In this document: one piece after another, positions 2,482-13,438 of the stretch
Numbering within the stretch: position 1 is the stretch's first letter
Layout of the letters: each line of letters starts with the position of its first letter
Assembly: GCF_001989615.1 (NCBI RefSeq)
Contig: NZ_CP019067.1
Span: forward strand, 2,418,001-2,482,000
Direction of reading: 5' to 3'
Origin: Halorientalis sp. IM1011
Lineage (GTDB): Archaea > Halobacteriota > Halobacteria > Halobacteriales > Haloarculaceae
DNA: 64,000 bases
Program-made: the position numbers and the translations under genes
The notes under the pieces: generated by a model
What the model was told of the DNA's origin: nothing
The model's database searches: none
Seen by the model: the letters and a program-made list of their open reading frames with translations, nothing else

Positions 2482-2735
2482 TGTTAAATGTTACCACACC
2501 TCACGGTAAACCGGTGGCCCACGGGTAACCGTGAGGTTTCAACTGCCGATACTGTCGGGTGCGATGAGTGGTCGGGAATGGCCAGGGGCCGTCGACAGTT
2601 AGGCGGGGGCTCGTACTCGCTCGCCGGCGATTCCTCGGCTGTGCAACCCGGTGGTACCGCCCCTGTCGGTCGTTTATTTTTCCCGCCCAAATCTTTATCA
2701 TTCAGTAAATTGATCAGTACGGATACCCGGGTACA
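2482..2735. promoter_or_regulatory. Divergent intergenic region with TATA box for the 2736 gene
   Basis: About 250 bp without a credible gene; the two open frames here have unhaloarchaeal composition and no family resemblance. The right part is AT-rich, and the stretch AATCTTTATCATTCAG around 2690-2705 contains a TATA-like box roughly 30-45 nt before the ATG at 2736. Confidence 0.5.
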
Positions 2736-3254
2736 ATGACCACCGATATTACTGCGGAGCGGGTCACCGTCGATCTCCACGTCCGATCACTCACACCCCG
2801 TGCCGGGAACGGCCGGCAGGAGGCGGTGATCGAACGGCTCGAACGACTCGCGGACACCGGGCTGATCGACGAGTTCAACGTTCACGTCTGGGGACGGCAG
2901 GTCAGCCTCTCGACGGCCGCGGCACGCACCGACGCTGGGCAAAACGTGCTGAACCGCGTCGAGATGTTCCGCGAGTGGGCAACGGACACCGATCGCTCGA
3001 TCAGTTCGTTCTTCGAGACTCGCCGGGTCGACTCACGGATGACCGAGGAGAGTTACGCCGCCCTCGTCCTGCCGATGTTCACGCTCGCGGAGTACCACGG
3101 TGGCGAACTCACCTACGTCGCCCCCTGTACTGACGGTGACGACGTCGTCACCGTGACCGACCGTCTCGACACGCTGGAGCAACACGGGACCACGACCGAA
3201 CCGCTCGAATCCGACGGCGACGGGGGACTGGTCGCCGAAGAGGCCGAGGAGTAA
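2736..3254 (+). CDS. Conserved haloarchaeal protein, possible HTH-type regulator
   Basis: A 172-residue acidic protein. The N-terminal 110 residues (VDLHVRSLTPRAG..., then RLERLADTGLIDEFNVHVWG) resemble a haloarchaeal family sometimes annotated as an HTH domain protein (HTH_63 from memory): a beta strand, a helix pair with a small wing-like segment, then a second alpha-helical part. The tail (about residues 145-172) is low-complexity and acidic. There is no membrane segment or signal peptide. It stands alone behind its own AT-rich promoter and faces the HxlR regulator gene convergently, with the stops adjacent. DNA binding is an inference and has not been tested here. Confidence 0.65.
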   Translation: MTTDITAERVTVDLHVRSLTPRAGNGRQEAVIERLERLADTGLIDEFNVHVWGRQVSLSTAAARTDAGQNVLNRVEMFREWATDTDRSISSFFETRRVDSRMTEESYAALVLPMFTLAEYHGGELTYVAPCTDGDDVVTVTDRLDTLEQHGTTTEPLESDGDGGLVAEEAEE

Positions 3255-3623
3255 TCAGGCAGGTGAACCGTCGTCCGGCGCGGGGACGAGGTGGTCACGA
3301 CCCCACTCGCGCATCGCCTCGATGACCGGCGCGAGGTCCGTACCGCGCTCGGTCAGGGCGTACTCGACGCGAAACGGTTTCTCGCTGACCACCGTGCGCG
3401 TGACGATTCCGCGTTCCTCCAGGTCCTCCAGACTGTCCGACAGCACCTTGCTCGACACGCCGTCGACCGCGTCCTTCAGCGCGTTGAACCCCAGCGGCCC
3501 CTCGTTCAACAGTCGGTCCACGATGACTGGATGCCACTTCTTGCCGATCAGCGATGCCGTCGCGGTCACGGCACACCACTCCTCGCCGGCACACCAGATC
3601 TCGATCGGATCGTCGTCGCTCAT
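3255..3623 (-). CDS. HxlR-family winged-helix transcriptional regulator
   Basis: A 122-residue regulator of the HxlR type. It shows the family's N-terminal Cys-containing segment (WCAGEEWC), the helix-turn-helix core LIGKKWHPVIVDRLL, the recognition region FNALKDAVDGVSSKVLSDSL, and the wing GIVTRTVVSEKPFRVEYALT followed by TERG. HxlR proteins often sense redox state or electrophiles through cysteines; two cysteines near the N-terminus (residues about 10 and 16) are candidates. The ATG at 3623 lies about 25-30 nt after an ACTATATATC box on the minus strand, fitting a leaderless transcript, so the longer frame starting at 3698 is not used. Target genes are unknown. Confidence 0.88.
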   Translation of the reverse strand: MSDDDPIEIWCAGEEWCAVTATASLIGKKWHPVIVDRLLNEGPLGFNALKDAVDGVSSKVLSDSLEDLEERGIVTRTVVSEKPFRVEYALTERGTDLAPVIEAMREWGRDHLVPAPDDGSPA

Positions 3624-3796
3624 ACACGGTCGGTGAACCTCCAGCGATATATAGTTACATCTCGATACCTGGTTGTAGTGGGTAACCGGAACCGTCACGG
3701 TGTAGTTCAGAGACTGATACTCGACCGGTCCCGCCAGTTCTCAAAATCTGATACTTTACACCGCGATTTAACAGGCTCCTGTCCGAGGAAGGTGAT

Positions 3797-4198
3797 ATGT
3801 ACGAGATACTGATGCCGATCGACACCGATGCCGACCGTGCGCTCAGACAGGCCCGGGCGGTCGAGGACCTGCCGGGCGGCTCCGAGGACGTTCACGTTAC
3901 CGTTTTGCACTCGTTCACCGACAACCCCTCGGGTGCGTCCATCACACAGCTGCAGTCGGCCCGGCGCGTCGAGTCCCACCTCGAAGACGCCGGCTACGAG
4001 GTGACTCTGGACGAGCGCTCGGGCAGTCCGGCGGACTCCATCCTCGAAGTCGCTGCCGACGAGGACGTGGACCTCATCTGTATCGGGGGCCGCAAGCGCT
4101 CCCCGACCGGGAAGGTCCTGTTCGGGAGCGTCACCCAGAGCGTCCTGCTTGACGCCGACCGGTCCGTGCTCGTCTGCCGGCGGGGCGACGACGCCTGA
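3797..4198 (+). CDS. Universal stress protein (UspA family)
   Basis: A 133-residue single-domain Usp protein. It begins with MYEILMPIDTD, the typical beta1-loop that contacts the nucleotide, and ends with the ATP-binding glycine pattern GGRKRSPTGKVLFGSVTQSV followed by a C-terminal strand SVLVCRR. These residues suggest an ATP-binding Usp. An ATTTAACA box at 3766-3773 lies 24-31 nt before the ATG, matching a leaderless promoter. It is monocistronic; the next gene is convergent. The role in haloarchaea is generally stress or starvation related, but the specific partner is unknown. Confidence 0.88.
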   Translation: MYEILMPIDTDADRALRQARAVEDLPGGSEDVHVTVLHSFTDNPSGASITQLQSARRVESHLEDAGYEVTLDERSGSPADSILEVAADEDVDLICIGGRKRSPTGKVLFGSVTQSVLLDADRSVLVCRRGDDA

Positions 4199-4372
4199 CG
4201 TAAGCGCCGTACATTTAAAAAACCACGAATTTCCGGGTAAAATTTAATCTGTAACTACTGTATATTAACGTGTGCCGGTGGGTGGGTGGTTCATCGCTTC
4301 CGATTCCTACCGGCGGGGGACGCGCCCACGTCTCCCTCAACAGCCGTCCCGCAAGCACCACGTGCCAGCTTT

Positions 4373-4405
4373 GCCGCGATGCCGTTCCTCAGGCGGCATC
4401 ACGGC
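4373..4405 (-). terminator. Candidate 3' hairpin of the response regulator gene
   Basis: GCCGCGATGCCG (4373-4384) pairs with CGGCATCACGGC (4394-4405) over a 9-nt loop with a single mismatch. On the minus strand it begins 12 nt after the stop codon of the response regulator at 4418. There is no strong T run, so it could be an RNA-stabilising 3' hairpin and not a terminator. Confidence 0.4.
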
Positions 4406-4417
4406 GTCTTCTGAATC

Positions 4418-4996
4418 CTATCGACCGGGCTGGCGGCCGATCTCGCGAAACGCCATCTCGAAATCCTCGAAGTCCGATAGCGAGTCGCTCATCTCGGCTT
4501 CGAGCCGTTCGGCCCGTTCACGTAACGCTTCGACGTCCTCGTTCCCCTCGAGTTCACGGGGTGTCTTCTCGGCTTCGAGCAGCGCCAGCTTGGAGGTGAC
4601 CTCGTAGTACTCGGTGAGTCGGTCGTCGTATTCGCCGGCCGCGAGCTGTTGCTCGACGGCCCCAACAAGGTCGCCGCTCTCGACGGGTTTGCAGAGGTAG
4701 TCGTCGAAGGGCATCTCGATGATATCGAAGTCGGGGTCGACGGCGGTGATCATGATGACCCGGCAGTCGAGCCCGCGGTCCCGAAGTTCCGCGAGAACGT
4801 CGTCGCCCGACAGGTCGGGCATCCGGCGGTCGAGCAACACCACGTCCACGTCCTCGTCGACCTTCTCGAGTGCTTCCTGCCCGCCGTAGGCGACCCGGAC
4901 GTCGTACTCGCGCTCCAGTTTGAGCGCGTATACGTCGGCGACTTCCGTCTCGTCGTCGACGACGAGTATCGTCGCCGACGCCGAATCGTTGCCCAT
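4418..4996 (-). CDS. HalX-type response regulator
   Basis: A 192-residue two-component receiver protein. Residues about 9-125 form the receiver: acidic pocket in ILVVDDETEVADVY, phospho-acceptor Asp in DVVLLDRRMPDLSG, Thr in IMITAVD and the conserved Lys in YLCKPVE. Residues about 130-192 form a coiled helical domain (YYEVTSKLALLEAEK) typical of the HalX extension of haloarchaeal regulators; there is no classical DNA-binding domain. No histidine kinase is adjacent, so its partner is encoded elsewhere. The start at 4996 (MGNDSASATILVVDD) is chosen because the upstream extension to 5110 has no homology and overlaps the next promoter region. Confidence 0.9.
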   Translation of the reverse strand: MGNDSASATILVVDDETEVADVYALKLEREYDVRVAYGGQEALEKVDEDVDVVLLDRRMPDLSGDDVLAELRDRGLDCRVIMITAVDPDFDIIEMPFDDYLCKPVESGDLVGAVEQQLAAGEYDDRLTEYYEVTSKLALLEAEKTPRELEGNEDVEALRERAERLEAEMSDSLSDFEDFEMAFREIGRQPGR

Positions 4997-5098
4997 ACCA
5001 CGTCTGTTTGGGAGCGACGGGTTATAATTTTGCACGCACGCTGACACCGGCGGCCCGAGACCGAACCTTTCACGCCAGTAGAGTCCCTCGACCGGGAC

Positions 5099-5323
5099 AT
5101 GAACGGCCACGAGACCGACGGCGGGACAGGGCTGTCCGAGAAGGCCACGTTCGCACTGGTACTGACCGGCGGCGTCGTCATCCCCGGACTGGCCAACTAC
5201 GCGCTCGCGGCGGCCGGCTACGACAGGCTCGGCAGTCTGGCGTGGGCGCTGGGCTACGCCGGGGCCATCCTGCTGATCTGGTACGTCTGGGTCCGCCCAC
5301 TGGACCTGACCGGACCCACGTAA
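5099..5323 (+). CDS. Small two-helix membrane protein
   Basis: A 74-residue protein with a short acidic N-terminus followed by two hydrophobic segments, about residues 17-40 (FALVLTGGVVIPGLANYALA) and 46-65 (AWALGYAGAILLIWYVW). It is conserved-looking in composition but no domain is recognised. It sits 55 bp upstream of another small membrane protein on the same strand, and a shared transcript is possible, although the second gene has its own TTTTTAGG box. Confidence 0.65.
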   Translation: MNGHETDGGTGLSEKATFALVLTGGVVIPGLANYALAAAGYDRLGSLAWALGYAGAILLIWYVWVRPLDLTGPT

Positions 5324-5378
5324 CTGTGGGCTCGTAACGGAAGTTTTTAGGCCGCTACAGGGTCAGTCCTAGCCAAGA

Positions 5379-5639
5379 ATGCTCGCGCTACCGCTGCAGG
5401 TAATCGACAACTTCCTGCTCCAGTACAACGTCGGGCAGGCACTGTTGCTGATCTTTATCCTGTCTGCCCTGGCAGCCCTGCCGCTGAAATCCCAGCGTGT
5501 CTACGCCATGCAGTTCCTGGGCTTCGGGCTCCTGTTCCTGCTGACACCCCAGAGCATGCTCGAAGCCACCTACTGGAAGTTCCTGGGTCTCGCCCTGCTC
5601 GTGCTGGCCCCGATGGTGTACATGACCGCCAAACGCTGA
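5379..5639 (+). CDS. Small conserved membrane protein
   Basis: An 86-residue hydrophobic protein with three predicted membrane helices (about residues 17-34, 43-59 and 65-82), nearly free of charged residues apart from a KSQR loop and the C-terminal TAKR. No function is recognised. A TTTTTAGG element about 30 nt upstream of the ATG indicates its own leaderless promoter. Its TGA stop ends at 5639, directly next to the stop of NAD kinase on the opposite strand at 5640. Confidence 0.7.
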   Translation: MLALPLQVIDNFLLQYNVGQALLLIFILSALAALPLKSQRVYAMQFLGFGLLFLLTPQSMLEATYWKFLGLALLVLAPMVYMTAKR

Positions 5640-6482
5640 TCAGTCGAGTTTTTCCAGGCCCGCGAAGAAATCCAGCGGCGGCCCCGCCACTCTGACCGGT
5701 TTCTCTGCCCGTTCGAGTGACACCGTCGCCGGCGGCGTCACCGTCTCGTTCGTCCGCCCGTCCCCGACCACGATCGCTCGCCCTCCGTTCTCGATTGTCA
5801 CTTCGATCTCGCTGTCGTCGTCGACCACCAGCGGCGGCATCTCCGACTCGCCGGCCATCTCCGTGACGATCAGCCCGGACACGTCCGGGTGGACGAGCGG
5901 CCCGTCCTCGCTGAGATTGTACGCGGTACTTCCCGTCGGCGTCGCGATCAACACGCCGTCGGCGTGGCCCTCGGTGTAGGTCGCCCCGTCGACCGTCACC
6001 TCGAAGTCGATCCCCTGTCCGTGCCCGCGCTGCTCGCCGAGGACGGCGACCTCGTTGATCGCCGGCGGGATCGTCCAGCCGTCGCCGCGGGCCCGCAGTC
6101 GGTGCATCGACCGGGTGTCGGCCGCGCCGTCCTCGCGGATCCGCCGGACCACGTCTCCGACGACCTCGACGGCTTCGTCGGGTGAAACTGCGTTCAGGAA
6201 GCCGACTTCGCCGAGGTTGACGCCCATGATCGGCGTCGTCCCCGCGCCGCGGGCGGCGAAGAGGAAGGTGCCGTCGCCGCCGATGCTGACCACCAGGTCG
6301 CGGCGCTCCATCTCGTCGACTGGAACGCCCTCGACCCCGGTCACTCCCTCGCTGTCGAGCCGTCTCGCTGTCGTCTCGTCGACGACAGTCGGCACGTCCT
6401 CGTCGTCGAGGTGCGTCCGGAGCTCGTTGGCCAGCGCGGCGGCGCGGGGATTGTCTCGCTGGGCGACGATGCCGACGTTCAT
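5640..6482 (-). CDS. nadK: NAD kinase
   Basis: ATP- or polyphosphate-dependent NAD kinase making NADP. The 280-residue protein has the diagnostic GGDGT motif at residues 68-72, the NEVAV motif near residue 149, the substrate loop TPTGSTAYNLS and the C-terminal beta-sandwich ending with the aromatic/LEKLD tail. Length and order match the family. The start at 6482 (MNVGIVAQRDNP) puts the first beta strand at the N-terminus, as expected; the upstream open frame to 6623 is Arg-rich shadow. It is the second NAD(P)-related locus in the window, besides the nadABC operon at 20-23.6 kb. Confidence 0.95.
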   Translation of the reverse strand: MNVGIVAQRDNPRAAALANELRTHLDDEDVPTVVDETTARRLDSEGVTGVEGVPVDEMERRDLVVSIGGDGTFLFAARGAGTTPIMGVNLGEVGFLNAVSPDEAVEVVGDVVRRIREDGAADTRSMHRLRARGDGWTIPPAINEVAVLGEQRGHGQGIDFEVTVDGATYTEGHADGVLIATPTGSTAYNLSEDGPLVHPDVSGLIVTEMAGESEMPPLVVDDDSEIEVTIENGGRAIVVGDGRTNETVTPPATVSLERAEKPVRVAGPPLDFFAGLEKLD

Positions 6483-6628: not shown

Positions 6629-7804
6629 ATGAGCGAGGACGACGACTGGTTCGAGAGCGCCGTCGGTGACGGTGACGACGACACCGACAGCGACGACACC
6701 GATTTCACCGACGACGGGAGCGACGATGCTGACGGCGAGGGGTCGCCGTTCGACGCGGACGAATCCGCCAGGAGCGACGACGGCGGTGACGGCTCGCCGT
6801 TCGACGGCGGGAGCGATAGCCCGTTCGAGGGCGGCGACGACAGCGGCGGCTTCGGCGACGGCAGCGCCGACGAGGGAGCGACCCCGTTCGGTGGTGACGA
6901 CGCCGCCTTCGCCGAGACCGACGGCGCGAGCGATGAGACCCCGTTCGGCGGCGGAAGCGACGACGACAGCCCCTTCGGCGGCGGGGGCGAGGCCGGCGGC
7001 GACGGCGAACTGTTCGACGACGACTTCGCCTCCGCGTTCGGGTCCGCCGGCGGCGGTGGCGGCGGTGGCAGCAGCGAGTTCGACGACGAGGACTTCGAGT
7101 CCGACCTCCCCCGACTGGACCTGGGAATCGAGGGACTGGACAACATGATCCAGGGTGGGATTCCCCGCCGACACCTCATCGTCACCATCGGGTCGGCAGG
7201 GACCGGCAAGACGACCTTCGGCCTCCAGTTTCTCCACCACGGCCTGGAAAAGGAGGACACCGAGAAAGCCGTGTTCATCACGCTCGAACAGAGCCACGAC
7301 GCCATCATGGCCACCGCGGACGAACACGACTGGAACTTCGAGCGCCACGAAGAGGAGGACGACCTCGCCATCATCGACCTGGACCCCGTCGAGATGGCCA
7401 ACAGCCTCCAGAACATCCAGGCCGAACTCCCCGAACTCATCGAGGACTTCGGCGCCGACAGGCTGGTGCTCGACTCCGTGTCGCTGCTGGAGATGATGTA
7501 CAACGACCAGGCCAAACGCCGGACCCAGGTGTTCGACTTCACTCGCTCGCTGAAGAAGGCCGGCGTCACCACCATGCTCACCTCCGAGGCCAGCGAGTCC
7601 CACGAGTACGCCTCCCGCCACGGCATCATCGAGTACCTCACCGACGCCGTCGTTCACCTCCGGTACGTCCGCCAGGAGACCCGCGAGACCCGCATGGCCG
7701 TCGAGATCCAGAAGATCCGCAACGCCAACCACTCCCGGGAGACCAAACCCTACGAAATTACCGACGAAGGCATCTCGGTGTACCAGCAGGCCAACATTTT
7801 CTGA
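6629..7804 (+). CDS. KaiC/RecA-superfamily ATPase with a long acidic PF-GG repeat N-terminus
   Basis: A 391-residue protein. Residues 1-160 are a disordered, strongly acidic Gly/Ser region with six short repeats built on S/TPF followed by Gly or acidic residues (for example GSPFDGG, DSPFEGG, TPFGGG). Residues 165-390 form one KaiC-like ATPase domain: Walker A GSAGTGKTTF near 188, an EQSHD segment, Walker B DRLVLDSVSLLEMM and the late VVHLRYVRQETRETRMAVEI strand typical of haloarchaeal HTR-like/KaiC proteins. It probably acts as an ATP-dependent signalling or scaffold protein; the role is not known. It is transcribed divergently from nadK and followed by a CTTTTT run that could end the transcript. 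Confidence 0.85.
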   Translation: MSEDDDWFESAVGDGDDDTDSDDTDFTDDGSDDADGEGSPFDADESARSDDGGDGSPFDGGSDSPFEGGDDSGGFGDGSADEGATPFGGDDAAFAETDGASDETPFGGGSDDDSPFGGGGEAGGDGELFDDDFASAFGSAGGGGGGGSSEFDDEDFESDLPRLDLGIEGLDNMIQGGIPRRHLIVTIGSAGTGKTTFGLQFLHHGLEKEDTEKAVFITLEQSHDAIMATADEHDWNFERHEEEDDLAIIDLDPVEMANSLQNIQAELPELIEDFGADRLVLDSVSLLEMMYNDQAKRRTQVFDFTRSLKKAGVTTMLTSEASESHEYASRHGIIEYLTDAVVHLRYVRQETRETRMAVEIQKIRNANHSRETKPYEITDEGISVYQQANIF

Positions 7805-11004: not shown

Positions 11005-11346
11005 ATGTTACTCGTTCGAGGTTCTGCCGGGGAAACCGACCTGACCGGCACGCTGTACGAGCGCGGCGAGTCCCCGCCGTCGTTCAAGGGCGCGCCCGAC
11101 GAGGACGCTCCCTACGTCTGGGTCTGTGACTCCTTCTACGAGGTCGAGAGCGGCGGCCAGGAAACCACCATCGCGGGCCGGACGGTCAACGTCGCCTTCG
11201 AGTCGCCGATGCCCCACGGCTTCGAGACCCGCGAGCGCGCCATCGAGGCCGCCGAGGAACACGTCCGCACCCAGTTCGCGCGCGTCGGCGTCGACCCCGA
11301 GGACGTCGACATCGAGGTCACGAAGACCGGGGCCGAGGCCCACTGA
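11005..11346 (+). CDS. Small conserved haloarchaeal protein (DUF7113-like)
   Basis: A 113-residue acidic protein starting MLLVRGSAGETDLTGTLYER; the segments PSFKGAPDEDAPYVWVCDSF and GFETRERAIEAAEEHVRTQF match a small haloarchaeal family of unknown function (DUF7113 from memory). It has no membrane segment. The ATG at 11005 gives the usual family start; the open frame to 10909 upstream is not used. It lies divergently from herA. Its last codons (GAG GCC CAC T) form the left copy of an 11-bp direct repeat flanking the island, and the gene probably once overlapped the nurA stop directly. Confidence 0.8.
   Translation: MLLVRGSAGETDLTGTLYERGESPPSFKGAPDEDAPYVWVCDSFYEVESGGQETTIAGRTVNVAFESPMPHGFETRERAIEAAEEHVRTQFARVGVDPEDVDIEVTKTGAEAH
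11334..11344. repeat. Left copy of 11-bp direct repeat flanking the island
   Basis: CGAGGCCCACT occurs here, at the end of the DUF7113-like gene, and again at 13428-13438, at the stop of nurA. Everything between is absent from the reconstructed ancestral junction. It reads as a target-site duplication or attachment core. Confidence 0.6.
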
Positions 11347-11420
11347 TCCCTGCAGCGTTGATCCCGACGAACCAGCGACACGTCCGCTGTGGCCCCCACT
11401 CCGGAATAGCATCTCGAAAA

Positions 11421-11429
11421 TAATATAAC
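11421..11429 (+). promoter_or_regulatory. TATA box of the 11455 gene
   Basis: TAATATAAC lies 26-34 nt before the ATG at 11455 in an AT-rich stretch, fitting a leaderless archaeal promoter. A second TATAAAG at 11441 is too close to the start to serve. Confidence 0.55.
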
Positions 11430-11454
11430 TCGATAATGCATATAAAGTAACAAG

Positions 11455-11679
11455 ATGGCGGCTCACCGACGACTGACCCACTGGCGAACCTGGAGCGATA
11501 TCGGTTCGGTGGCGTTCTCCTGTTTTCTCATGTCGGTATTACTCGGGGAGCACTTTACCGACGCACTGGCTGTCGTGGGTATTCCGGTGTCCGTGTACAG
11601 GACCGTGGTCGTCGGGGTGACGGCTCTTTCTGTCCTGCTCATGTTGGTTTTTCTGTCGGACGTGGACGAACCCGACTGA
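11455..11679 (+). CDS. Small membrane protein in the island
   Basis: A 74-residue protein: a basic N-terminus (MAAHRRLTHWR), then two hydrophobic segments at about residues 20-38 (VAFSCFLMSVLLGEHF) and 46-67 (VYRTVVVGVTALSVLLMLVF), and an acidic tail SDVDEPD. No family is recognised. It has its own promoter and points towards the Cys-rich peptide genes. Small two-helix membrane proteins next to secreted peptide toxins can be immunity proteins, but here that is only a guess from position. Confidence 0.6.
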   Translation: MAAHRRLTHWRTWSDIGSVAFSCFLMSVLLGEHFTDALAVVGIPVSVYRTVVVGVTALSVLLMLVFLSDVDEPD

Positions 11680-11751
11680 CCCGGTGAAGGAACCGTCGTG
11701 GACGACATCGGCCCGGCTTGGTCGATGATCGCCCCCGCGAGGCGGCCGGAG

Positions 11752-12531
11752 TCAGGAATTCGACGGCACCTCGGAGAGCCGCCTGTCACATCCCTCACAC
11801 GACAGTGTGTACACTTCCTGTGTGCTGCAACAACTCTCGACTTCGTCGGTATCGTGCGCGAGTTCCTCGCCACAGGACGGGCACGTCTCGAGGAACACTC
11901 GAAGCGTCCGGAGGAGTTCGTCTTTCTCGTCGATCGATAGTGTCTCCCAGTCCGGACACCGATCCCGAAGAAGTGGGATCGCAGCCGCGTCGACCCGAAG
12001 CGCCACTGTCGTCCGTCGTTTCACGGCGACTATCTCGTCTGCGACAACGTGGACTCCCTCACCGCGTTTCTGGATTTCGATGTCTTCGGCCTCGAGAAGC
12101 TTGCCGAACCGCTCGTGGATCAACTCGACCGTGATCGCGTCCATTCGCTCGTGCCACTCCGTTCGTACGCCCTCGACCAATCGAACGTCGTCCGTCGTTG
12201 GACAGTAGCGAACCAGTCCGCCGTCCCGGAGAAACTGAGCGCTTTCCGTGATCGCGCTCTCGGAAACCGGGGTCTTTCCGAACCAGTTCAGCACGCTCGC
12301 CGGCAAGAACCGCTTTGTCAGCGCCGGTGTCCCGGGCACGAGGTATCCTCGAAGGTAGATCGAGAGACCCGACACCACGAGCACCAGCAGTGCGACCAGA
12401 GGTGTGACGAAAAGTGACATCAGGAGCGCTATCAGAACCGAAATGCCTGTGTTCACAATGGTACAGGCGGTGCATCTGTTCGTTCCGGTATATTCCGGCC
12501 TGCGAGGTCGGGAAATCGTGGATTCTATCAT
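11752..12531 (-). CDS. Membrane-anchored zinc-ribbon protein
   Basis: A 259-residue protein. The N-terminus has PEYTGTNRCTACTIVN (two cysteines, CTAC), then a long hydrophobic region of two helices (about residues 28-65) ending GLSIYLRGYLVPGTPALTKR, a conserved-looking motif. The middle (70-200) is a soluble alpha/beta region; residues 200-259 hold paired CxxC motifs (CPSCGEE, CEGCDRR) plus a CC, consistent with a zinc ribbon. Similar proteins exist in many haloarchaea without known role. It starts 48 bp after the Cys-rich precursor gene on the same strand, so they probably form one transcript. A role in maturation, thiol chemistry or immunity for that peptide is inference only. Confidence 0.7.
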   Translation of the reverse strand: MIESTISRPRRPEYTGTNRCTACTIVNTGISVLIALLMSLFVTPLVALLVLVVSGLSIYLRGYLVPGTPALTKRFLPASVLNWFGKTPVSESAITESAQFLRDGGLVRYCPTTDDVRLVEGVRTEWHERMDAITVELIHERFGKLLEAEDIEIQKRGEGVHVVADEIVAVKRRTTVALRVDAAAIPLLRDRCPDWETLSIDEKDELLRTLRVFLETCPSCGEELAHDTDEVESCCSTQEVYTLSCEGCDRRLSEVPSNS

Positions 12532-12579
12532 GTTCGTATCTCTGGTGCTGTCGGCATTCGAAAACGTGGTGCGCGGGGA

Positions 12580-13248
12580 CTAGCAGCAGCTATGCTTCAC
12601 CCAGTGACAGTCCGTGAGCCAGCAGTTGGGACAGGGTTTCTTCACCTCGTTCCGTTGGCCGACGACCCCACAGCACCAACAGGTCGCACACGACCGCCAG
12701 AGGGGTTCGTCACACTCGGAGGAATCCGCTCGCGGCGTCCCCGCCGGTTCGAGCGGTTCACCCTGATAGTAGTTGTCCGGGGCGTAGACGATTTCCGGGC
12801 CGTCCGCTCGATGCAGATACGCCGATGGTACGTCGTCGGAGAGCGGCAACATGATCTCCAGGCGATCGTCCCCCACCGGGATGTGGAAGTTGTACTGCTC
12901 CAGCTCGCCGTTGACTCGGAGTTTCTCGATACCACCGGGCTGGGACCGATCGGCCAGCTGATCGAAGGGAATCGCGGACACCGACTCCTCCTCGAGCAGT
13001 CCGTCGTCACTCAACCCCTTCAACATGGATCCCGAGAACGCCGCTTCGAGACTCTCACGGGCCTCTCGGTGGTCGAAATCGAGCGGCTCGACCGTCGTGT
13101 TCTCGACCGATTCCGGTTCCGTCGCCGACGCGGATCCACTCAGGCCCACGACCGATCCGACACTCAGGGCCAACGTCTGCAGGAACCCTCGTCGCTCGTC
13201 CGCACTCTCGATCACGTCCAAACGGGTCGTCTCGTCGTTGTCTGCCAT
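12580..13248 (-). CDS. Tat-exported precursor with Cys-rich C-terminus (halocin-like candidate)
   Basis: A 222-residue preproprotein. Residues 18-43 form a Tat signal (RRGFLQ followed by TLALSVGSVVGLSGSASA). A soluble acidic middle domain (about 45-175) follows, then a short linker and a C-terminal 46 residues with ten cysteines, including CATCWCC, CPNC and a terminal CC. This layout, Tat signal plus pro-region plus ten-Cys C-terminal peptide, parallels the halocin C8 precursor, whose mature peptide also has ten cysteines; the sequence itself is different. The ATG at 13248 is preferred over GTG at 13260 because the GTTAATAA box at 13288-13281 is then at leaderless spacing. The mature peptide may be antimicrobial or metal/redox active. 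Confidence 0.7.
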   Translation of the reverse strand: MADNDETTRLDVIESADERRGFLQTLALSVGSVVGLSGSASATEPESVENTTVEPLDFDHREARESLEAAFSGSMLKGLSDDGLLEEESVSAIPFDQLADRSQPGGIEKLRVNGELEQYNFHIPVGDDRLEIMLPLSDDVPSAYLHRADGPEIVYAPDNYYQGEPLEPAGTPRADSSECDEPLWRSCATCWCCGVVGQRNEVKKPCPNCWLTDCHWVKHSCC

Positions 13249-13280
13249 TGCAACTGCCACGTTATGTCGGTTGGAAATAG

Positions 13281-13288
13281 TTATTAAC
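13281..13288 (-). promoter_or_regulatory. TATA box of the Cys-rich precursor operon
   Basis: On the minus strand GTTAATAA lies about 33 nt before the ATG at 13248, within a long AT-rich tract (13262-13330) unlike the rest of the window. Confidence 0.5.
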
Positions 13289-13427
13289 TAGAATACATTT
13301 AATGAATATAATTTTTGAGATGGATAATAGAACTACAGTAATCGCCGGTGCACCACCCCCTGAACATCTATGCTCGGGGGCCGGTAGCCGTCCGGCTCGT
13401 CGGTGGCGGGCAGGGAGTCTCGTCCGA

Positions 13428-13438
13428 CGAGGCCCACT
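13428..13438. repeat. Right copy of 11-bp direct repeat flanking the island
   Basis: CGAGGCCCACT, identical to 11334-11344. It ends inside the nurA stop codon (TAG at 13439-13437 on the minus strand). Confidence 0.6.

Follow-up and report, generated by a model that had tools for sequence, protein, structure and literature searches.

The locus described here raises the question whether a cysteine-rich protein with a Tat signal, encoded beside genes for two membrane proteins, is the precursor of a secreted antimicrobial peptide and, if so, whether it belongs to the halocin C8 family. The gene lies at 12580..13248 (minus strand) of the window, by which we mean the whole 64,000-nucleotide stretch of Halorientalis sp. 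IM1011 DNA that was analysed. Its call is based on sequence and homologues and gives a protein of 222 amino acids from an ATG, with a GTG at 13260 as a possible alternative start upstream. The protein opens with a Tat signal (residues 1-43, 13120..13248, minus strand), in which RRGFLQ at residues 19-24 is followed by a hydrophobic stretch and an ASA cleavage-like site; the arginine pair is invariant in the alignment (29/29 members). The pro-domain comprises residues 44-176 (12721..13119, minus strand) and is delimited by a profile–profile match and a structure model; the pro-region is acidic (pI 4.1) and contains no cysteine. The cysteine pattern and its conservation define a C-terminal tail of 44 residues with ten cysteines, the presumed mature peptide (residues 179-222, 12583..12714, minus strand). 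A preliminary description of this DNA had named, without giving the strand, the RRGFLQ signal, a pro-region of about 130 residues and a ten-cysteine C-terminus of 46 residues, next to a two-helix and a zinc-ribbon membrane protein. Both neighbours are present, the pro-region measures about 133 residues, and all ten cysteines fall within the last 44 residues; the overall interpretation offered there was largely right and is supported by the analysis below. No family in Pfam, NCBIfam, PHROG or PADLOC was matched by the precursor; the sole near-match was the NCBIfam Tat model, with a score just under its cut-off, and a sequence search of PDB chains returned signal-peptide-type matches only.

The cysteines of the tail are spaced CX7CX2CX1CCX12CX2CX4CX6CC. 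At the cysteine frequency of neighbouring genes (0.24%), the probability of at least ten cysteines in 45 residues is ~1.6e-17, so the tail is not a product of chance. Each of the 29 aligned members has an even number of cysteines after the signal (range 4 to 14), and they lie within the last 28-67 residues, with none in the pro-region. The even parity fits disulfides; its nominal P of 2e-9 overstates independence, as some members are closely related to each other. Four close homologues that are intact show identities of 48-80% in the tail, 38-58% in the pro-region and 33-48% in the signal, and a tail better conserved than the pro-region is what one would expect of the active product. The preliminary description had suggested searching for a cysteine pattern that stays conserved while the pro-region varies. 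This is what the close homologues show, but the wider family shows the opposite, a common pro-domain with varying tails. An AF2 model of the pro-domain (residues 50-160) shows a helix-loop-helix and five strands with pLDDT mostly 75-95, and a fold search of the PDB with this model gave no significant match; the tail was modelled with low confidence. The latter counts against the toxin reading, as does the lack of notable hydrophobicity in the tail, in which it differs from halocin C8.

Relatives of the precursor were found by whole-genome search of ~390 haloarchaeal genomes alone; scans of phage, plasmid, IMG/VR and GTDB-220 contigs revealed none. The close full-length homologues, from G105, G338, G124 and G102 (G numbers denote genomes of the survey), share 41-56% identity with it. 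The same search also gave more distant homologues, and a profile built from eight members reached many more; beyond the four close ones, over 25 were gathered in total, all of them haloarchaeal, and matches confined to the Tat segment were excluded from family membership. In the alignment, the pro-region shows a motif of approximately LLxxLxxxGxLxxxSxxxxP, followed by beta strands and the cysteine-rich end. The remaining precursors had been collected with a profile of the whole protein, signal included; for the profile–profile comparison, the signal and tail were cut off beforehand, and the pro-regions of the core family and of the remaining precursors still matched with 98% probability (E 8e-14, 109 columns). 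One pro-domain is therefore common to many precursors with different tails. Only deep divergence was observed; no tail swap between near-identical pro-domains was seen. In one genome (L197, G206:C1:3411500-3419500, 2670-6013), three different cysteine-rich Tat precursors with the common pro-domain stand in tandem, followed by a gene of the zinc-ribbon partner family. As far as sequence can tell, this is a large family without a name, like halocin C8 in design and unlike it in sequence, and some members of the superfamily may already be among the candidates of a 2019 survey of archaeal toxins (Makarova 2019).

The gene at 11455..11679 (plus strand) encodes the 74-aa two-helix membrane protein, the candidate immunity protein. 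Its relatives directly adjoin the precursor in G338, G102 and G124, so that, with the window, a linked small membrane gene co-occurs with the precursor in four genomes. Leave-one-out profiles recover each of these relatives (E 5e-10 to 7e-20). The gene is rare (15/384 genomes) and occurs with the precursor at three genomic locations unrelated to one another, namely in the window, in G338 and in G102/G124. In the last two it stands with the precursor at a junction between KH and thermosome genes, and at the same junction in G066 and G058 it is present and the precursor absent. In G338, the tail of the precursor contains two in-frame stops and the two-helix gene is intact; further relatives occur elsewhere with no precursor detected. 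Such a linked and rare gene, which persists as an orphan, shows the pattern expected of immunity genes, and the toxin/immunity layout proposed in the preliminary description is upheld in this respect. Taken alone, the KH/thermosome junction would look similar if the two-helix gene were resident and precursors came and went. No two-helix gene was found beside the precursor of G105 or those of more distant members, which is counted against the toxin reading and means that the gene is not universal. The 74-aa protein is the best candidate for immunity and probably protects the producer.

All three genes lie on a 2,083-bp island (11345..13427), whose plausible genes they are, and the island is missing from three congeners (G212, G131 and G339). 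It is bounded by exact copies of the 11-bp direct repeat CGAGGCCCACT, the left one (11334..11344) at the 3' end of a DUF7113 gene and the right one (13428..13438) at the 3' end of nurA. Where the congeners have the empty site, the DUF7113 gene directly abuts nurA; G212 has a single copy of the repeat there, and the copies of G131 and G339 differ from it slightly. The GC content of the island is ~60% as against 65-69% in the flanks. No recombinase was matched among the three plausible genes of the island and no tRNA was found within the window; the putative mobile island of the preliminary description is confirmed as a precise insertion with a flanking repeat and empty sites, with neither its own recombinase nor a tRNA target. 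The distribution of the precursor is sporadic, and the mobile insertion is counted in favour of the toxin/immunity reading. Another genome (L173, G390) has, where the DUF7113 gene meets nurA, a different insertion of ~0.84 kb that contains one membrane-protein-like ORF of ~271 codons. This suggests that the junction is a variable site. In G105 (L064, G105:C27, 6158-9122 and 11794-13863), a serine-recombinase-like ORF lies near the precursor/partner pair, and the pair is flanked on either side by a large ORF; these two ORFs are related to each other and possibly belong to a transposon.

The third gene (11752..12531, minus strand) encodes a 259-aa membrane zinc-ribbon partner, described from its adjacency to precursors in several genomes and from a structure model with two TM helices, a soluble domain and a CPxC...CxxC zinc ribbon. 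A fold search found no known fold for it, and a sequence search of PDB chains gave nothing significant. It adjoins the precursor in G105, G034 and G359 and closes the three-precursor tandem array of G206; by our estimate, chance adjacency within 1.5 kb is ~0.3% per locus. Paralogues of the partner also stand beside halocin-C8-type precursors (G378, G239 and, as a fragment, G105) and beside other cysteine-rich Tat precursors (G093, G105 and G378). Two side observations belong here. A contig of G105 (L133, G105:C68, 3846-5810 and 12919-14247) has two cysteine-rich Tat precursors, one of halocin C8 type, each divergent from a partner gene, the second of which is the fragment. In the host genome of the window (L132, G000:C1:263000-275000, 6749-7690), a weak halocin-C8-domain gene with no obvious Tat signal lies beside a partner paralogue. 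The family has no Pfam or NCBIfam model and occurs in 349/384 haloarchaeal genomes, typically in one to five copies each. Most copies have no such precursor alongside, which is a point against the toxin reading, and no common context was found among the neighbours of the widespread paralogues. A family that is near-universal and mostly apart from precursors probably serves a general step in the handling of secreted peptides. An ABC-2 ATPase and permease pair lies close to precursors of three genomes (G034, G359 and G371) and occurs likewise in the locus of G007, whose peptide we take to be halocin C8. Since the pair of G034 lies between the precursor and a halocin-C8-type gene, the clean cases are G359 and G371 only. 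No exporter gene occurs near the precursor of the window, and this too speaks against a toxin.

Taken together, we consider the cassette to be a putative archaeocin-type toxin/immunity unit of haloarchaea, with a probability of roughly 0.6. This reading is based on the Tat signal and ten-cysteine tail, the even cysteine parity, the conservation of the tail, the common pro-domain, the linkage and orphan copies of the two-helix gene, the occurrence of partner and ABC-2 genes also near halocin-C8-type genes, and the mobile insertion. The anatomy of the precursor, the common pro-domain, the diversity of the tails, the gene linkage, the orphan two-helix genes and the insertion are observed; export, cleavage, toxicity and immunity are the steps that we infer, by which the cassette would work like halocin C8 without being a member of its family. 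The precursor, judging by its signal, would be exported folded via the Tat pathway, with the acidic helix-loop-helix/beta pro-domain either holding the tail inactive or aiding folding and export. An extracellular protease would then free a tail of ~5 kDa, presumably locked by five disulfides, as the parity and location of the cysteines suggest, and the tail might target competing haloarchaea, probably at the membrane. The 74-aa two-helix protein would provide the producer with specific self-protection. Since the zinc-ribbon protein is found with precursors of unrelated pro-domains and tails, it may act as a common accessory in processing or export, or in general immunity.

A competing view is that the precursor belongs to the halocin C8 family as a divergent member and derives from ProC8, whose pro-region is the immunity protein HalI. 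Both have a Tat signal, a pro-region and a ten-cysteine end in the same order, the modelled pro-domain opens with a helix-loop-helix, and the same partner family and type of exporter are found nearby. Against this, the halocin C8 domain model of NCBIfam (TIGR04449, halocin_C8_dom) gave no match to the precursor up to E 1, and comparison of the pro-region with 17 halocin-C8-type precursors revealed no detectable HalI homology (hhalign probability 0.5%, E 0.13); the ten-cysteine peptide itself differs in spacing and in length (44 versus ~76 residues). Membership is thus rejected at the level of sequence, where the family is new and the precursor should not be filed under halocin C8, and the preliminary description, which had called it halocin-like yet different, was correct in this; that it is a divergent member derived from ProC8 appears very improbable. 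It is also unlikely that the tail is a secreted peptide of another kind, such as a protease inhibitor, metal binder, signal peptide or cell-surface protein. Its CxxC and CPNC pairs could bind zinc, and inhibitors or signals are frequent among cysteine-rich secreted peptides, but the even cysteine number of every member fits disulfides, the linked small membrane gene persists where the precursor is absent, the neighbours are common with halocin-C8-type genes, and the distribution is sporadic, with insertion in the window.

A further debatable issue is whether the two-helix gene belongs to the unit at all. It could be an unrelated resident, in which case the producer would be protected by the zinc-ribbon protein or, as HalI protects in the case of halocin C8, by the pro-domain. 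The copies at the thermosome junction of G066 and G058, the other relatives that lack a detected precursor, and the precursor/partner pair of G105 with no two-helix gene found would agree with this. However, the copy of the window sits inside the same exact 2.08-kb insertion as the precursor, and the gene joins the precursor at all three unrelated sites; this explanation seems rather doubtful.

Haloarchaea may possess, beside halocin C8, a second and far more diverse arm of peptide weapons, a proposal that we make tentatively, as somewhat short of an even chance. It would combine one folded Tat-exported pro-domain with many different disulfide-rich tails and with cognate two-helix proteins for immunity; the membrane zinc-ribbon accessory would serve both arms. 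Almost all haloarchaea are described as halocin producers, yet the majority of halocins lack a full sequence (PMC11509114). A recognisable pro-domain, the cysteine parity rule and a linked immunity candidate provide means to mine many new candidates, which makes the question of the missing halocins directly testable. The zinc-ribbon partner, present in nearly all haloarchaea and without a Pfam or NCBIfam family, points to a new step in the export or maturation of peptides, or in immunity.

How does the cassette compare with known systems? ProC8 is exported by Tat and consists of HalI and a 76-aa peptide (PMC11509114), and the window precursor has the same order of signal, pro-region and C-terminal ten-cysteine peptide; members of both also have the zinc-ribbon partner family and ABC-2 exporter genes nearby. 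The tail is shorter than that of halocin C8, as given above, with other cysteine spacing, and the window cassette encodes its small membrane protein in a gene of its own; for halocin C8, a single gene was reported to yield both the peptide and immunity (Sun 2005, cited in PMC11509114). Immunity requires an N-terminal helix-loop-helix of HalI, according to work cited in PMC11509114; the helix-loop-helix of the present pro-domain is for this reason worth testing, even though no homology was found. Bacterial bacteriocin/immunity cassettes similarly link a small two-helix membrane protein to a peptide gene, and such a protein also occurs as an orphan; the window cassette, in contrast, is archaeal and putatively Tat-exported, with a large folded pro-domain in place of a short leader. 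Polymorphic toxins are likewise known to join a conserved N-terminal part to variable C-terminal parts, but the variable part here is a short peptide of the disulfide type and not an enzymatic domain.
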